The translations under genes were made by a program, and so were the position numbers. This document shows positions 2,531-30,288 of a stretch of 64,000 nt of DNA, piece by piece. The notes below the pieces were generated by a model. That model had not been told where the DNA came from and ran no database searches. It saw only the letters and a program-made list of their open reading frames with translations. Where the stretch lies: assembly GCF_000695685.1 (NCBI RefSeq), contig NZ_JFFR01000033.1, positions 248,001-312,000 of the forward strand. The letters run 5' to 3'. Each line of letters opens with the position of its first letter. Position 1 is the first letter of the stretch. This stretch comes from Vibrio fortis (GTDB lineage: Bacteria; Pseudomonadota; Gammaproteobacteria; Enterobacterales; Vibrionaceae).

Positions 2531-3601
2531 TTAGTTAACCAGTGCAGTAACATCTTGAACCGGAACATATTGCTCCGTTTCTGTCGCTTTAATGATGGCG
2601 TCGATCACCAACAGATTTTGTAGGCCATCGTAAATGCTGACTTTTGGTGTCTGTTCTTCGCCACGAATTAGAGCGCAGAAGTGCTCAAGTTGACGCTTAA
2701 GTGGATCTTCACGCGTTACTGGCTCTTGGCGCTCTTCCATCGCATTCCACCAAGAAGGCGTCACCCCCTCTTTAAACGACTTAATCTGCATTGTCGGGAT
2801 CGATAGCGAACCGTTGGTACCTGCCACGTGGTAACAATCTTCTGTTTCGTAAGTCGCGTAGGTCTTGTTTTCTTGCGAGGTTTGCTCCCAGCTGCGCGGG
2901 CTTGCCGAGGCATCAGACAACATGAATGAACCCAGTGTGCCATTGGCAAATCGCAGTGAGATTGCAGTTGTGTCTTCTACTTCAAACTTGCGGGTCGCGC
3001 TTGAATTCAGAGCCTGAACGCCAACAATGTCACCAACCAAATGACGCAGATTGCCAATCTCATGAATCATGTTAATTAGGATCGGGCCGCCACCTTTAAC
3101 TTTGCGCCACTCGCCTTCGTTGTAGTAGTAATCAGGTTTGTAGAACATCGCGCTGCCCATGATAGATACCGTCTTGCCCAGTTCACCGCTGTCGATGATC
3201 GACTTAGCTGTCTCTAGCAGTGGGCTGTAAGCACGGTGGTGACCAACCAGCATTTTTGCTTCTTCACGATTTGCGTGTTTAAGAAGCTCAATGGCATCTT
3301 CGATCGAATCAGTAACAGGCTTCTCGACAATGGCAGGCACGCCAGCATTAATACATTCGTGCGCTTGAATAGCATGCAGACGATTTGGTGTCGCCAAGAT
3401 CACACCGTCCGGCTTGTCTTGTGCAAACAGCTCTTCTAGGCTGGCGTAGACCTTAACGCCATACTCTTCCGCAACCTCTTTGGCTCCTGGAGAAGGATCA
3501 ACAATCGACGCCAACTGACATTGCGCGTTTTCAGAAACCAGTTTGATGTGTGTTTTCCCGATCAGACCTGCCCCAGCGACAGCAATTTTAACTTGTTCCA
3601 T
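2531..3601 (-). CDS. Gfo/Idh/MocA family NAD(P)-dependent oxidoreductase, substrate unknown
   Basis: A 356-residue cytoplasmic dehydrogenase. The N-terminal Rossmann motif VAGAGLIGKTH is followed by the family signature VEKPVTDS near residue 94 and a C-terminal alpha/beta domain containing GGGPILINMIHEIG, where the His is the usual catalytic-region residue. Length is typical for MviM/IolG-like enzymes that oxidise or reduce cyclic polyols and sugar derivatives. It lies between the carrier genes and quiC in one operon, so it probably handles a compound feeding into 3-dehydroshikimate or protocatechuate. It is not the LigC of the pathway, which is encoded at 10137. The substrate cannot be read from the sequence. 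Confidence 0.8.
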   Translation of the reverse strand: MEQVKIAVAGAGLIGKTHIKLVSENAQCQLASIVDPSPGAKEVAEEYGVKVYASLEELFAQDKPDGVILATPNRLHAIQAHECINAGVPAIVEKPVTDSIEDAIELLKHANREEAKMLVGHHRAYSPLLETAKSIIDSGELGKTVSIMGSAMFYKPDYYYNEGEWRKVKGGGPILINMIHEIGNLRHLVGDIVGVQALNSSATRKFEVEDTTAISLRFANGTLGSFMLSDASASPRSWEQTSQENKTYATYETEDCYHVAGTNGSLSIPTMQIKSFKEGVTPSWWNAMEERQEPVTREDPLKRQLEHFCALIRGEEQTPKVSIYDGLQNLLVIDAIIKATETEQYVPVQDVTALVN

Positions 3602-3644
3602 GTTATGACCTTATTTTTCATTCACGCTCTACAGGCGTCTATTT

Positions 3645-4574
3645 TTATGATGATGTTGTGATAGCAATAACGACGGACAGCGAGAGTCCAGAGGCCACCG
3701 TCGTAATAATTAGAGTGTTTAAACAGAAGCGTTGTTGTTGATAGAGCCCACCTAAAATCGGGTAGATGGACAACATAGGAGACGCAGCAAAAATCAATAA
3801 GACATACTTGAGGTCTCCTTCTACGGGTAGCGTCATCAGCAGTGCCACGACGATCAATGGAAAAAAAACTAGCTTCATCGCCGTCACAAAAGCGATTCGT
3901 CTGAACTGCTCAAATTTCAGTGATTGACCGAGCGCTCCCCCAATCGCAAATAGGGCGAGAGCAACCGATGTTTTCGCAAAAATGGATACCCCTTCAGTCA
4001 TAAATTCTGGCAAGCGAATTCCCGTGATATTCACGATCAAGGCAAAGCTGATCGCTAAGATAATTGGGTTGCGACTGATACGACCCGCGACAATCTTTAG
4101 TTGCTCACTGATGCTTGACGAACGGCCTTGGGCAAACTCCAGTGAAATCAAGCTCAATGGAATAAACACTAGGTTCTCAATCAGTACACACATTAAAAAT
4201 GCTTCAATGAACTGACCGTCGTACAGCGATAGCACCACTGGAAAGCCAACGAACGCGCTGTTTGGCATGCCGCTGCCCAGACCATTGATGAAGCTTTCCG
4301 TCCAGGTGGACTTGAGTAGGCCCTTGCTCACCAATATCGCCACGGTCATCGCACTCAAGCCTGCAATGGCGTACACCAACATGAAGTTGACGTGGATGAC
4401 TTGCCCTAACTCAATACTACTCAAGCTGCTGATGATCACTGCTGGCAGCGATACATACAGCACGAACTTGCTCACCTCACCGACGAATTGTTGGCTAAAA
4501 AAGCCTTTTTTGGTCGTGAGGAACCCTACTGCCACGATAAAAATCAGTGGCAGCAACACTTCAAATACAAACAT
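3645..4574 (-). CDS. AEC (auxin efflux carrier) family permease
   Basis: A 309-residue inner-membrane protein with about ten hydrophobic segments from the N-terminal FVFEVLLPLIFIVAVGFL to the C-terminal SGLSLSVVIAITT. The pattern, including the G/N-rich segment MPNSAFVGFPVV near residue 105, fits the AEC/BASS-like carriers that move organic anions. It lies 9 bases after the TRAP large subunit gene and before two catabolic genes in the same operon. It may be a second route for the same acids, or an exporter that prevents accumulation of a toxic intermediate. Direction and substrate are unknown. Confidence 0.8.
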   Translation of the reverse strand: MFVFEVLLPLIFIVAVGFLTTKKGFFSQQFVGEVSKFVLYVSLPAVIISSLSSIELGQVIHVNFMLVYAIAGLSAMTVAILVSKGLLKSTWTESFINGLGSGMPNSAFVGFPVVLSLYDGQFIEAFLMCVLIENLVFIPLSLISLEFAQGRSSSISEQLKIVAGRISRNPIILAISFALIVNITGIRLPEFMTEGVSIFAKTSVALALFAIGGALGQSLKFEQFRRIAFVTAMKLVFFPLIVVALLMTLPVEGDLKYVLLIFAASPMLSIYPILGGLYQQQRFCLNTLIITTVASGLSLSVVIAITTSS

Positions 4575-4583
4575 TGTTTTTCT

Positions 4584-5849
4584 CTAGTAGCCGAATAACT
4601 TCGGTAAGAAGAGCACGCTTTGTGGTACGAAAGTGATGAAGAACAGCACCACAACTTCCAGTAGGAATAGAGGAATAACTTGCTTAGATATCGCAGCAAT
4701 CCCGACCTTGGAAATGGTATTGGAGACAAACAGACAGATGCCCATTGGTGGTGTAATCAAACCAATCATTAGGTTGAAGATAACCACAATGCCAAAGTGA
4801 ACAGGGTCGATACCAAAGCTCATCGCAATCGGATGGAAGATTGGAATCAGGATTAGCATGGCTGCAATGCCTTCAAGGAACAGGCCCACCGCCAGTAGGA
4901 TTAGGTTCACCATGATTAGGAACATAATCGGATCTGAGATAGTGCTAAGCACCTGTTGGCTAATGTATTGCGGTACGCGCGAGAACGTCAGCAGCCAGTT
5001 TGCTACAGAGACAACAGCAATCAGAATCAATACGATAGAAGAATCACGCATTGAACGCATAAACACTTCAGGTAAGTCGCTGACTTTGATTGATTTGTAC
5101 ATGAACATGCCGACCGACAGCGCATAGAATGCAGCAAAGGCAGCGGCTTCCGTCGGCGTCACGATACCCATTAGAATCGAGCCAAGGATAAAGATTGGCA
5201 TCGTTAGCGGTACAAAGGCTTTAACCAACGCTTTGCGACGACTGGTTCGCACACCGGTATTCACAATCTTATGCTTGGTCGCATAAAAGAAAACAAACAC
5301 AGATAGGGCAATTGCCGACAAGACACCCGGAACAATACCCGCTAAGAACAGAGCAGGAACCGAGACGCCACTAGCGATAAGCGCGTAGATGATCACCGGA
5401 ATGCTCGGTGGGATCATAGGACCAATCACCGAAGAGGCTGCGGTCAGTGCCGATGAAAACTCTTTGCTGTAGCCCTCTTTTTCCATTTGAGGAATAAACA
5501 CTCGGCCCAGTGCAGAAGTGTCTGCTACCGCTGAACCTGAGATCCCGGCAAACATTACCGAAGACCAGATATTTACTTGTGCTAAGCCACCACGGAAGTG
5601 TCCAACCAAGGCGTTAGCAAAATCGATAATACGATTCGTAATACCACTCTTGTTCATCAGCTCACCAGCCAGAACAAACAGTGGAACAGCCAGAATAGAG
5701 TATGAATCTAATCCGCTAAAAATTCGTTGTGCAACAAGGCTGATTGAGATTGGAGTGCTCGTTACGTAGAACGACATAGCCAAAATAATGGCAAACACTA
5801 ACGGAACACCAAATACGAGCATACCGCCCATTAAAGCTATTGATGGCAT
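4584..5849 (-). CDS. TRAP transporter large permease, DctM type
   Basis: The 12-TM-class large membrane subunit of a tripartite ATP-independent periplasmic transporter, which couples sodium gradient to uptake of a carboxylate delivered by the DctP-type protein. The 421-residue length is typical. Recognisable family stretches include FVLAGELMNKSGITNRIIDFANALVG in two consecutive blocks near residue 60, GSAVADTSALG, MIPPSIPVIIYA and TPTEAAAFAAFYA. It follows the small subunit gene by 9 bases in the order dctP-dctQ-dctM, the usual TRAP layout. Linkage with quiC and the protocatechuate genes suggests a quinate-, shikimate- or hydroxybenzoate-like substrate. Confidence 0.93.
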   Translation of the reverse strand: MPSIALMGGMLVFGVPLVFAIILAMSFYVTSTPISISLVAQRIFSGLDSYSILAVPLFVLAGELMNKSGITNRIIDFANALVGHFRGGLAQVNIWSSVMFAGISGSAVADTSALGRVFIPQMEKEGYSKEFSSALTAASSVIGPMIPPSIPVIIYALIASGVSVPALFLAGIVPGVLSAIALSVFVFFYATKHKIVNTGVRTSRRKALVKAFVPLTMPIFILGSILMGIVTPTEAAAFAAFYALSVGMFMYKSIKVSDLPEVFMRSMRDSSIVLILIAVVSVANWLLTFSRVPQYISQQVLSTISDPIMFLIMVNLILLAVGLFLEGIAAMLILIPIFHPIAMSFGIDPVHFGIVVIFNLMIGLITPPMGICLFVSNTISKVGIAAISKQVIPLFLLEVVVLFFITFVPQSVLFLPKLFGY

Positions 5850-26813: not shown

Positions 26814-26855
26814 AAATAAGGCCCCAAAACCGAGTCCAGTCTTGGGGCCATTTAT
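26814..26855 (-). terminator. Terminator of the vemP-secD-secF unit
   Basis: GGCCCCAA and TTGGGGCC flank a 15-base loop, with AT-rich arms AATAA and TTATT extending the stem. It lies 40 bases beyond the secF stop. Confidence 0.8.
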
Positions 26856-26894: not shown

Positions 26895-27833
26895 TTAAGG
26901 ACGGCTATCTTCCAGCTCATCAACCGGCTTTACTTGGTAGTGACAAGGCTGTAAGCCAAGTAATTTCGGAAGAGTGATACCAACCGAAATTGAAGACCAT
27001 GTACCACTCGCGATACCCACAACCAATGCAATCGCAAAGCCTTGTAGCGCCGCACCACCAAGCAACCAAAGCGCTGATACCGTCAACAACGTCGTACCTG
27101 AGGTCACCATAGTACGAGAGAACGTTGCTTTAACTGACTCGTTAAGCAGGTTGTCAGTATCGCCGTTAGGGTTGCCACGCAGCATCTCACGTACACGGTC
27201 AGCAATGATGATCGAGTCATTGAGTGAGTAACCCAGAATCGCTAACACCGCCGCCAGTACTGTTAGGTTAAATTCAAATTGAGTCAAAGCGAACAAACCG
27301 AAGATGATGGTCACGTCGTAGATGATTGCAGCCAGAGCACCTAGAGCTAAACGCCACTCAAATCGGACACTTAGGTAGAGCATGATCATTAAGAAACATA
27401 CCAATACCGCCAAGCCACCTTGGTCAACCATGTCTTGACCGACTTGAGGGCCTACCACACTGCTGTTAAGCACTTTCACTTGGTCACTCACCGATGCCAA
27501 GGCATCAACTAAGCTTGTTTGTGATGCTTCCGTCAATTGACTGTAGCGGATCGTCCAGCGGTCTTGTTCTGCCATACCAACCACTTGAACGTCTTGTTGG
27601 AAAGCGGCATCAAGTTCGGTTTTAAGCGCGTCTTTGGTCACTTGGTCAGAGAGCTGAACCTCAGCAACCACGCCGCCTGTGAAGTCCAAGCCCCAGTTAA
27701 ACCCTTTCACTGCCACCAGCATTACAGAGCTCATGAACAGCACAATAGATATTACCGACATCACCTTGCGCAGAAGGGTCATATTACTGTCTGAAAAATA
27801 GCGGTCTGACACAGTCATTTTTGAAGTACTCAT
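26895..27833 (-). CDS. secF: Protein translocase subunit SecF, second copy type (SecF2)
   Basis: A 312-residue inner-membrane protein working with SecD to pull preproteins out of SecYEG using an ion gradient. Features are the first membrane segment VMSVISIVLFMSSVMLVAV, the periplasmic P4 domain (about 60-130), the GLDFTGGV motif at about 48-55, and the five-helix RND-like core with LGYSLNDSIIIADRVRE and SGTTLLTVSALWLLGG. It begins three bases after the secD stop. The lack of yajC and the presence of a VemP-like gene upstream mark this as the regulated SecDF2 pair; a yajC-linked pair is expected elsewhere. Confidence 0.93.
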   Translation of the reverse strand: MSTSKMTVSDRYFSDSNMTLLRKVMSVISIVLFMSSVMLVAVKGFNWGLDFTGGVVAEVQLSDQVTKDALKTELDAAFQQDVQVVGMAEQDRWTIRYSQLTEASQTSLVDALASVSDQVKVLNSSVVGPQVGQDMVDQGGLAVLVCFLMIMLYLSVRFEWRLALGALAAIIYDVTIIFGLFALTQFEFNLTVLAAVLAILGYSLNDSIIIADRVREMLRGNPNGDTDNLLNESVKATFSRTMVTSGTTLLTVSALWLLGGAALQGFAIALVVGIASGTWSSISVGITLPKLLGLQPCHYQVKPVDELEDSRP

Positions 27834-27835
27834 GC

Positions 27836-29635
27836 TTAAATCCTTACATCGTGGCGTTGGTCACGACCCCAAACCAAATTGATGATCGCTCGTGAAGCAA
27901 AAATGCCCGTAAACATACTGGTTAGAAGACCTAAGCCCAGCGTCAAAGCAAAACCTTGAATAGGTCCGTTACCAATGGTGTAAAGAGCGACAGCTACAAT
28001 CATTGTGGTGAAGTTAGCATCGAAGATCGACGAGAACGCGCTATCGAAACCACGATCGATGGAGCTAGCAAAGCTGCGTCCTTCTTTCATTTTGTCTCGA
28101 ATACGTTCGAAGATTAGTACGTTGGTATCTACCGCCATACCAACGGTTAATACCAAGCCCGCAATACCCGGCAGCGTTAATACCGCTCCTGGTAGCAATG
28201 CGATTAGACCAAATAGCGTCACCATGTTTAGGATAAGCGCGCCATTCGCGACCCAACCAAGGCGGCGATACCATAGCGCCATAAATGTCAGAGTAAGACC
28301 AAGGCCAAGTGCTAGAGCAGCGAAGCCGTTAGTCACGTTTTCTGCACCCAAAGATGGACCAATGGTACGTTCTTCAATGATGGTCACAGGCGCGGTTAAC
28401 GAACCCGCTCGAAGCAGTAGAGCCAACTCTTGTGCTTCAGCCATAGTGCCAGCACCTGTGATTCTAAAACGGCTGCCCAATTGAGATTGGATATTCGCAA
28501 CACTGATCACTTCACTGGTTTTCTCGCTGTTACCGGCTCTGTCGCGGCTGTACTCGCTGTACACGGTCGCCATTGGCTTACCAATGTTGTGACGAGAGAA
28601 CTCAGACATTTTCTTACCACCCGCTGAATCTAGGGTGATGTTTACTTCTGCGCTGCCCATTTCACCAATGCCACTGCGTGCATCAATAATGTGTTCACCA
28701 CTGAGCACTGCTTTGCGAGCAACAACCACACGGTTGCCATCGGTATCTTTTAGCGTTTGAGTGTTGCGTGTTGGGTTGTCGTAAACCGAGTAGAACGCCA
28801 ATGATGCCGTTGCACCAATCACGTCTTTCGCAGCTGCAGGATCTTGTACACCCGGCAATTCGATACGGATACGGCTTTCGCCTTGGCGCTGAATTGATGC
28901 TTCAGTGATACCTAGCTCTTCAATACGGCTACGCATGATTTGTAGGTTTTGTTGAACCGTTAGGTTGCGAAGCGTGCGTTGTTCGTCTTCTGATTGCGTC
29001 AAAGTCAGCTTTTTGTCTGAGCTGTCACGTAACCATTGCGGGAACTCTTCACGAATCAGCTTCTGCGCCTTTTCAAAATCCGCGTCAGTACGGAAGTTAA
29101 ATTCCACTTGGTTGTTGACCACTTTGCCGCGGGCATAACGCACTTGGCTTGTGATCTCGTCAACCATAGCTTGAGCTTGCGCGTGGTAAACCGGCTCCAT
29201 ATCTACTTCTAGTAAGAACTGCACACCACCACGTAAATCAAGACCTAGCTGAATCGGTGCAAAGCCCATGTCAGTCAGCCATTTTGGTGCCGCAGGCTCC
29301 ATTGCTAGCGCGACGGTTGCAGTATCGAGCAGACGCTCATTCAGCACTTCTTTGGCTTTTGCTTGCTGCTCAGCATCTTCTAAGATCACGACTAAACGCT
29401 TGTCTTTCTGATAAGCCGATTTAGCTTGGATGCCTTCGCTCGCAAGGTATTGCGTCACCTGCGTCGCGTCGATTGTTTGCTCAGAGCGATTGTTAATTTG
29501 AACCGAAGCGTCTTCACCATACCAAGACGGTAAAGCACTCAGAATCATGATGATAATGGTGGTGATAAGTACCACGTATTTCCACTTCGAGTAGTGGTTG
29601 ATTTGTTTTCTTGGAATGCGTTTTTTCACAGTCAA
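27836..29635 (-). CDS. secD: Protein translocase subunit SecD, second copy type (SecD2)
   Basis: A 599-residue SecD subunit. The N-terminal membrane helix (KYVVLITTIIIMILSALPSW) is followed by the P1 periplasmic domain with LGLDLRGGVQFLLEVDM near 130 and the RIELPGVQDPAAAK region. The RND-type core contains GMAVDTNVLIFERIRDKMKEG with the conserved intramembrane Asp used for ion coupling. The frame opens with a TTG at 29635, and a GTG at 29629 (protein starting VKKRIPRK) is equally possible; AAGAG lies just upstream. The leader is folded into an RNA structure reaching the vemP 3' end. In Vibrio alginolyticus the corresponding pair is induced when the sodium-driven SecDF1 works poorly. Confidence 0.93.
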   Translation of the reverse strand: MTVKKRIPRKQINHYSKWKYVVLITTIIIMILSALPSWYGEDASVQINNRSEQTIDATQVTQYLASEGIQAKSAYQKDKRLVVILEDAEQQAKAKEVLNERLLDTATVALAMEPAAPKWLTDMGFAPIQLGLDLRGGVQFLLEVDMEPVYHAQAQAMVDEITSQVRYARGKVVNNQVEFNFRTDADFEKAQKLIREEFPQWLRDSSDKKLTLTQSEDEQRTLRNLTVQQNLQIMRSRIEELGITEASIQRQGESRIRIELPGVQDPAAAKDVIGATASLAFYSVYDNPTRNTQTLKDTDGNRVVVARKAVLSGEHIIDARSGIGEMGSAEVNITLDSAGGKKMSEFSRHNIGKPMATVYSEYSRDRAGNSEKTSEVISVANIQSQLGSRFRITGAGTMAEAQELALLLRAGSLTAPVTIIEERTIGPSLGAENVTNGFAALALGLGLTLTFMALWYRRLGWVANGALILNMVTLFGLIALLPGAVLTLPGIAGLVLTVGMAVDTNVLIFERIRDKMKEGRSFASSIDRGFDSAFSSIFDANFTTMIVAVALYTIGNGPIQGFALTLGLGLLTSMFTGIFASRAIINLVWGRDQRHDVRI

Positions 29636-29646
29636 GATCTCTTATT

Positions 29647-29807
29647 TTAACTAAGTTTTGCGAACGCGAACGATGGCTAACCAACCCCCACCAGACCAAA
29701 CTGATTGAGTGGCAGCAGAGTGCATTCGCGAATTGTTTGGGGATTGGCTAGAGCAACGGACACAAGGGATCGTCGATGCGACCAATCAGGGGCAAACGTT
29801 TAGCTAA
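29647..29807 (-). promoter_or_regulatory. vemP-secD2 intergenic RNA structure sequestering the secD2 leader
   Basis: Two pairings are visible in the minus-strand RNA. An outer one joins the vemP stop region (plus 29792-29807) to the sequence directly upstream of the secD ribosome site (plus 29647-29661): eight bp UUAGCUAA with UUAGUUAA including one GU, then five bp UUUGC with GCAAA. An inner stem joins plus 29678-29690 to 29738-29750 over 13 bp with two GU pairs. A ribosome stalled near the end of vemP would cover one arm of the outer helix and free the secD leader. This agrees with the published model for vemP-secDF2; the exact pairing here is my own reading. Confidence 0.75.
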
Positions 29808-30288
29808 GAAGTTCTCGAAAGTGGGAATATTGGATGTTGCCCTCTTTCCACCCAGACAGGCGGGAAGGCGGAGAGCTTACAATACTGGTCCAGTGCTGTT
29901 TGAGGTCTAACATCGGGGTTGTCTCTAACAACGAAGCCAGTAAAGAAGGGGGAGAAAAGTCAATCAGCAGGTGATAGACGGGCTCGATATCACTTGAACC
30001 GTCTTGTTCATTGCTGAGTATTCGACGAAACGTGCTGGCTTGAAGGCTCGATTCAGAATCATGATAGTGCGAGCCATCCTCCACTGGAGGAGTTAACTTG
30101 GTCTGTTCACACGCGTGTCGTGTTTCAAAAGCGTCTTTTTGAGAAGCTTGCGCCAGTTGCTGACACAAGTGACTACTTGAAGTGGCAATTTGAAAAGGCT
30201 TTGCTGGAAACGAATAGCCATGACTGTTCACTAAGCCAAAACTCAGTACAAACAGCATCAACACTAAACGCGCGCCCAACTTCAACAA
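29800..30288 (-). CDS. vemP: VemP-like secretion monitor, translation-arrest peptide controlling SecDF2
   Basis: About 162 residues with an N-terminal secretion signal (LVLMLFVLSFGLVNSHG) and a C-terminal segment WTSIVSSPPSRLSGWKEGN then IQYSHFRELLS. It lies directly upstream of secD2-secF2, exactly the position of Vibrio alginolyticus VemP. That 159-residue chain stalls the ribosome near its C-terminus until it is pulled through the Sec channel. Prolonged arrest, when export is slow, opens the secDF2 leader. The frame opens with tandem TTG codons at 30288 and 30285, and a third TTG at residue 4 would give 159 residues; no ATG precedes the signal peptide. Counting from the end, the reported arrest residue Gln156 corresponds to Glu here, which should be checked by alignment. 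Confidence 0.88.
   Translation of the reverse strand: MLKLGARLVLMLFVLSFGLVNSHGYSFPAKPFQIATSSSHLCQQLAQASQKDAFETRHACEQTKLTPPVEDGSHYHDSESSLQASTFRRILSNEQDGSSDIEPVYHLLIDFSPPSLLASLLETTPMLDLKQHWTSIVSSPPSRLSGWKEGNIQYSHFRELLS

Follow-up and report, generated by a model that had tools for sequence, protein, structure and literature searches.

The locus considered here raises the question whether a short open reading frame (ORF) ahead of secD2 monitors protein export. It lies in a stretch of 64,000 nucleotides (nt) from Vibrio fortis, called the window in the following, where vemP, secD2 and secF2 follow each other on the minus strand. The first-pass annotation of this sequence had proposed a secreted chain of 160 residues before secD2 as a counterpart of VemP from V. 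alginolyticus. An ORF is present at this place (29800-30288, minus strand; TTG start, stop at 29800-29802), but it comprises 162 residues; the C-terminal segments quoted for it, including IQYSHFRELLS, are exact and correctly located. Because of its position, its agreement with a published family consensus, the spacing of an arginine residue and the predicted masking of the secD2 Shine-Dalgarno (SD) sequence, the proposal of a VemP-like leader is upheld, and the ORF very likely specifies a VemP-type secretion monitor acting on secD2F2. The VemP-secDF2 system is already published, with 339 VemP-like sequences catalogued (PMC10987492; this and the other publications are cited from excerpts), and the window adds one member.

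From the 339 sequences the consensus RxxxWKxxNxxY was derived (PMC10987492). The segment RLSGWKEGNIQY of the window leader (R143-Y154, codons at 29827-29862, minus strand) fits this C-terminal motif, and the ORF is located directly upstream of secD2F2, as members of the family are. When 15 diverse leaders were aligned, only R143, G146, W147, K148, N151, and Y154 (window numbering) were invariant. The first-pass annotation had named a C-terminus (40 residues) without resemblance to VemP as one half of what would speak against it; a resemblance is present. Outside the motif, Arg-85 of V. alginolyticus VemP is required for export-coupled release of the arrest (PMC7793623). Its counterpart appears to be R89 (codon at 30022-30024, minus strand), since the distance from R89 to N151, 62 residues, equals that from Arg-85 to Asn-147. 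Among 69 distinct secD2 leaders that could be scored, one further leader being too short, an arginine is found 62 residues before the motif asparagine in 52, while 37 have one at -63, 14 at -61, nine at -56, and six at -54; the remaining offsets between -72 and -51 are occupied by arginine in none to two leaders each. The N-terminus shows, by eye, a basic start followed by a hydrophobic run, and the probable Sec signal sequence MLKLGARLVLMLFVLSFGLVNSHG (30217-30288, minus strand) was likewise judged by inspection. That the peptide regulates in response to a different trigger, such as a ligand or the supply of a codon, instead of Sec export could be considered in view of the different genes found behind leaders of the VemP family (see below). 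With a hydrophobic N-terminal segment, an Arg-85 counterpart at equal spacing and an export motor as downstream target, this explanation is very improbable.

Comparisons with relatives revealed where conservation is concentrated. In an alignment of nine sequences including the window and reaching out to Photobacterium sanctipauli, 14 of the 16 residues from R143 to R158 are invariant, the exceptions being S145 and F157, and GWKEGNIQYSH does not vary among 17 loci, again as far as P. sanctipauli. Compared with Vibrio sp. D404a, the complete vemP ORF of the window shows nonsynonymous and synonymous divergences of 0.115 and 1.117, respectively. In the last 22 columns, two of 51 nonsynonymous and ten of 15 synonymous sites differ between these two, and zero of 51 and seven of 15 between the window and V. 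chagasii. The conservation of the motif is not a matter of chance, given the 14 invariant residues and the synonymous excess in the last 22 columns; judged from these alignments, the C-terminal motif block is under strong purifying selection and the rest of vemP drifts. These data bear on the possibility that the window ORF is a VemP descendant with lost or weakened arrest, secD2F2 being adjusted mainly by the structure of its own mRNA. Eight of 15 named arrest residues unlike those of V. alginolyticus would agree with such a loss. Drift of the motif would then be expected, however, and instead it is strongly conserved while the remaining protein changes, and the published consensus is intact; loss of arrest is therefore rejected as unlikely.

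The second line of evidence comes from the predicted mRNA structure at secD2. The gene was listed as an ORF from TTG 29635 (27836-29635, minus strand), 164 nt behind the vemP stop, but GTG 29629, 8 nt after AAGAGA, is the more likely start according to the sequence, giving 27836-29629. In the predicted helix, the 3' end of vemP, CAC TTT CGA GAA CTT CTT AGC TAA (5' arm, final codons and stop, 29800-29823), is opposite the SD AAGAGA and the GTG start of secD2 (3' arm, 29627-29654), which would thereby be masked, as expected for a member of the VemP family. In the window, the SD pairs with the leader end at a mean of 0.73, compared to 0.10 in shuffled sequences, none of 30 shuffles reaching the observed value. 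The minimum-energy folds of 37 distinct window-type loci (pieces of 206 to 379 nt; one locus with a split leader, L100, and one lacking downstream sequence, L022, were omitted) pair two to six of the six SD bases with the final codons of vemP in every case: three bases in 24 loci, four in five, five in three, six in four, and two in one. Over all secD2 loci folded (87 of 92, five being too long, and many closely related to each other), the mean is 0.48 compared to 0.12 in shuffles. When the 5' end of the piece used for folding was shifted from 29827 to 29809, the unpaired probability of AAGAGA rose from 0-0.4 (last A 1.0) to 0.7-0.9. An ordinary secreted protein incidentally adjoining secD2, an idea that draws on the leader matching none of the library families, would not be expected to have last codons that pair with the SD of secD2 in all 37 loci or selection focused on its C-terminus, and is extremely improbable. 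In many Splendidus-type loci (L012-L060), the gap between vemP and secD2 is about 75 to 170 nt longer than in the window; both helix arms are kept.

Several results weigh against a VemP-type monitor in the window. The strict arrest sequence of V. alginolyticus, HRIxGWKETNAMYVxLNxx (PMC7897499), is not present with all its named residues; seven of the 15, R, G, W, K, E, N, and Y, are retained, and the segment forming the helix in the peptidyl-transferase centre in V. alginolyticus differs. The HxP element of VemP, Gln-65/Pro-67 (PMC11470409), is not found at the same spacing, the positions -20 and -18 from R89 being V69 and D71, with P67 and P68 nearby. The leader gave no matches to PDB chains up to an expect value (E) of 10 and none to Pfam and NCBIfam up to E 1. 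Leader-end pairing was reached by at most one of 30 shuffles in only 30 of the 87 secD2 loci. Furthermore, in the 5'-cut folds the SD opens, yet most of TCTTGACT and the GTG start remain paired, and with further shortening of the piece the unpaired probabilities of the three leading SD bases return to 0.2-0.7, so that unmasking is incomplete in the fold model. The V. alginolyticus arrest segment of 29 residues has no match at E 0.1 in the genome from which the window derives. The arrest motif of the window is, on its sequence, a divergent variant of the family for which arrest is predicted, and with eight of the 15 named residues different, the V. alginolyticus stall site is not transferable to it.

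If the window leader acts like VemP of V. alginolyticus (mechanism in PMC5449182, PMC7793623, PMC11470409), the signal sequence would direct the nascent chain to the Sec translocon. During brisk export, the chain would be pulled, the C-terminal motif would release the ribosome, and translation would terminate; the final vemP codons could then pair with the secD2 ribosome-binding site, leaving secD2F2 off. When export is slow, the RLSGWKEGNIQY-SHFR segment would bring the ribosome to a halt close to the ORF's end. Occupying the 5' arm of the helix, the stalled ribosome would free the SD, and SecD2F2 would be made. In V. alginolyticus, export slows down at Na+ levels insufficient for SecDF1, which is Na+-driven, and by analogy the same trigger may apply here.

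SecD2 and SecF2 were identified with very strong Pfam and NCBIfam scores; secF2 (26895-27833, minus strand) encodes 312 amino acids and is followed by a terminator-like hairpin with a stem of 13 pairs (26820-26849, minus strand), taken as the operon end. Such sites are no more frequent in the region than expected from shuffles (three versus 4.2), and the hairpin is weak on its own. An Rfam scan of the window gave no matches.

To judge how widespread such leaders are, 196 genomes of the genus and 329 of the family, taken as Vibrio and Vibrionaceae from named relatives, were searched. The leader profile matches 83 genomes of the genus and, at E 0.01, 167 of the family, while the V. alginolyticus segment of 29 residues matches 108 of the genus genomes at E 0.1. 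One leader (L100, genome G115) is split into a C-terminal frame of 60 amino acids and a separate N-terminal frame, ahead of a full-length secD2 match.

The genome containing the window has three SecD proteins, the window copy, one with 62% identity on contig C14, and one with 46%. The last adjoins genes recognised by eye as yajC and tgt, a neighbourhood that is the usual place of secDF1, and this separate copy counts in favour of the VemP-type reading of the window locus. On contig C14 (locus L008, minus strand), secD (3449-5236) and secF (2547-3449) are followed by a chaA-like gene (1207-2298) and dedA (about 493-1200); a VemP-type ORF was sought upstream of this secD and is absent. Ten further loci (L172, L174-L181, L194), partly with disrupted frames, have secDF, chaA-like gene and dedA in the same leaderless arrangement. 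In L008 the third secD is preceded by an inverted repeat, TTAGAGAAATTCATA...TATGAATTTCTCTAA (5410-5462, minus strand), which recurs with small changes across all 11 aligned loci; a piece of 80 nt folds at -20.1 kcal/mol. Rfam searches of L008, L053, L130, and L102 gave a single match, a tRNA in L130, and none in L008.

VemP-type leaders were also detected in front of other genes. Behind 119 leader ORFs of the loci fetched, the gene recognised first is secD2 in 94, dedA in ten, chaA-like in seven, p107 in five, and none in three, a tally that cannot be read as a frequency as duplicates are counted, 12 loci have no leader by the pattern, and second copies were fetched deliberately. With duplicates removed and weaker leaders found by the profile added, an intact chaA-like gene is directly downstream in eight genomes (L081, L101, L103, L107, L118, L119, L120, L136), and a decayed one in two (L061, truncated; L063, in-frame stops). 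dedA follows a VemP-type leader in six (L026, L089, L091, L102, L104, L105), with a short ORF in between in five of them, which is alike in L091, L102, L104, and L105. Long operons, vemP-secD-secF-chaA with dedA or p107, are found in L110, L111, L112, L113, L117 (frames broken), L197, and L198, and suggest that the shorter forms may have arisen by loss of secDF. p107 encodes a small protein (about 107 residues; L127, 1263-1586; relatives in L061, L074, L197) that is probably secreted. It follows a VemP-type leader or takes the place of dedA in the long operon, and a Pfam search with the L127 copy gave nothing above the cut-off. In L118 and L119, the gap between leader and chaA contains octamer tandem repeats (ACGTCAGT units) differing in copy number.

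At E 0.01, 17 of the 196 genus genomes have a match to a more divergent leader, which terminates in NLIYRFxHAR or a similar sequence. It directly precedes a dedA-family gene in 16 of these, with a broken frame in L167, the exception (L162) being at a contig edge. Their homology to VemP is drawn from an alignment over 23 C-terminal columns, with an hhalign probability of 72.6 and E 3.2e-5, and from a form that contains tryptophan (L167, L169). The exact V. alginolyticus segment occurs in two genomes, G085 and G192. Both harbor a divergent dedA leader plus a p107 leader (L158, L159, L207), and G192 also has VemP ahead of secD2F2 (L208).

Features of VemP are unevenly retained in these leaders. 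Arginine at -62 is found in eight of nine chaA, six of six dedA, five of 11 p107, and eight of 16 divergent dedA leaders, the divergent ones of G085 and G192 (L158, L159) lacking it. Since rival offsets score equally well in the divergent leaders (eight at -58, nine at -71) and L158 and L159 are without the arginine, this residue argues only weakly for them. The motif tryptophan is absent in 14 of the 16, L167 and L169 having the form that contains it, which counts against arrest there, as W143A impairs arrest in V. alginolyticus VemP (PMC7793623). The W-K..N core is missing from the chaA leaders L081 and L136 and from five of 11 p107 leaders. For the chaA leaders, an equally simple masking of the downstream SD was not supported, leader-end pairing being 0.04 compared to 0.12 in shuffles (eight of nine loci folded), and p107 leaders gave 0.23 versus 0.21 (11 loci). 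For the divergent dedA leaders the values are 0.445 and 0.18, with at most ten of 100 shuffles reaching the observed pairing in eight of 16 loci; some start codons used were inside the gene (L160, L164, L166, L168), and the folds are only suggestive of masking of the downstream SD.

The chaA and dedA leaders could be dead remnants of lost secDF operons, and the decayed chaA genes behind two of them (L061, L063) would fit this. The possibility is countered by selection on the C-terminus of the dedA leaders: in the last 22 codons of L102 and L104, none of 52 nonsynonymous and 12 of 14 synonymous sites differ, and in five other pairs 3-5.2 of 52 and 5-9.8 of 14. Selection is less clear for the chaA leaders L101 and L103, with a ratio of 0.76 over the whole ORF.

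The names of the downstream genes are kept general, because the equivalog cut-offs for ChaA and UptA were not reached. The antiporter P0003 shares 47% identity over 328 columns with E. coli ChaA, for which the annotation is Na+/K+:H+ antiporter, and matches Pfam Na_Ca_ex, but scores 311.6 of the 505 bits required by NCBIfam NF007895 (ChaA). The dedA proteins behind a divergent leader (P0002) and in the genome containing the window show 35% and 33% identity to E. coli YghB, respectively. P0002, P0004, and the protein of this genome all match Pfam VTT_dom, and their best UptA equivalog scores are 40.5 of 250, 51.4 of 300, and 45.2 of 300 bits.

Could these arrangements reflect a common function? 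It is possible, with slightly less than even weight, that VemP-type leaders constitute a modular export-sensing switch in Vibrionaceae which also drives chaA-like and dedA-family genes, using export as a proxy for Na+ shortage. Slow SecDF1-driven export would then turn on several Na+-independent membrane functions, with antiporters of the Na+/K+ or Ca2+:H+ family (chaA-like) and candidate undecaprenyl-phosphate flippases (dedA family) among the targets. In V. cholerae, a mutant in yghB, a dedA-family gene, is unable to grow above pH 6 when Na+ is absent; a mutant lacking secDF1 has more SecD2 and SecF2 and an otherwise unchanged proteome (PMC9876793). The Na+ phenotype and the rise of SecD2F2 make a switch responding to SecDF1 export a sensible proxy for Na+ shortage. 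The otherwise unchanged proteome counts against a DedA response in V. cholerae and hence against the wider switch, as do the chaA-like genes in 37 of 196 genomes, which are often without a VemP-type leader, including that of the genome containing the window. Since a related dedA leader accompanies the exact V. alginolyticus segment where that segment occurs, the wider switch is testable in VemP's own organism. In the literature searched, judged by title and with most subscription papers outside it, no report of VemP-type leaders before chaA-like or dedA genes was found.

These leaders in the relatives matter more than the window locus itself. If they arrest, nascent-chain export sensing would be, in marine bacteria, a shared input of ion homeostasis and of the recycling of cell-wall lipids. 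The window contributes a clade whose arrest motif is distinct and strictly conserved, and which can help to find out what parts of the VemP helix in the peptidyl-transferase centre are necessary.

Compared with VemP of V. alginolyticus, the window leader likewise precedes secD2F2, shares the R..GWKE.N..Y core and the arginine 62 residues before the motif asparagine, and is predicted to follow the same logic of SD masking (PMC5449182). It differs in the C-terminal half of the arrest sequence, where IQYSHFRELLS replaces AMYVALNSQFSA, and is one residue shorter beyond the motif. With the 339 VemP-like sequences it has in common the position ahead of secDF and the consensus RxxxWKxxNxxY; two genomes with two vemP-secDF copies are named in the same study (PMC10987492). 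According to the excerpt, the ORFs screened there lay ahead of secA, secDF, and yidC, so that leaders of chaA or dedA would have escaped the screen. SecM and MifM are, as far as the excerpts describe them, also monitoring substrates which arrest their own translation and thereby raise a downstream export or insertion gene, but their arrest sequences are unrelated and their targets are secA and yidC2, respectively.

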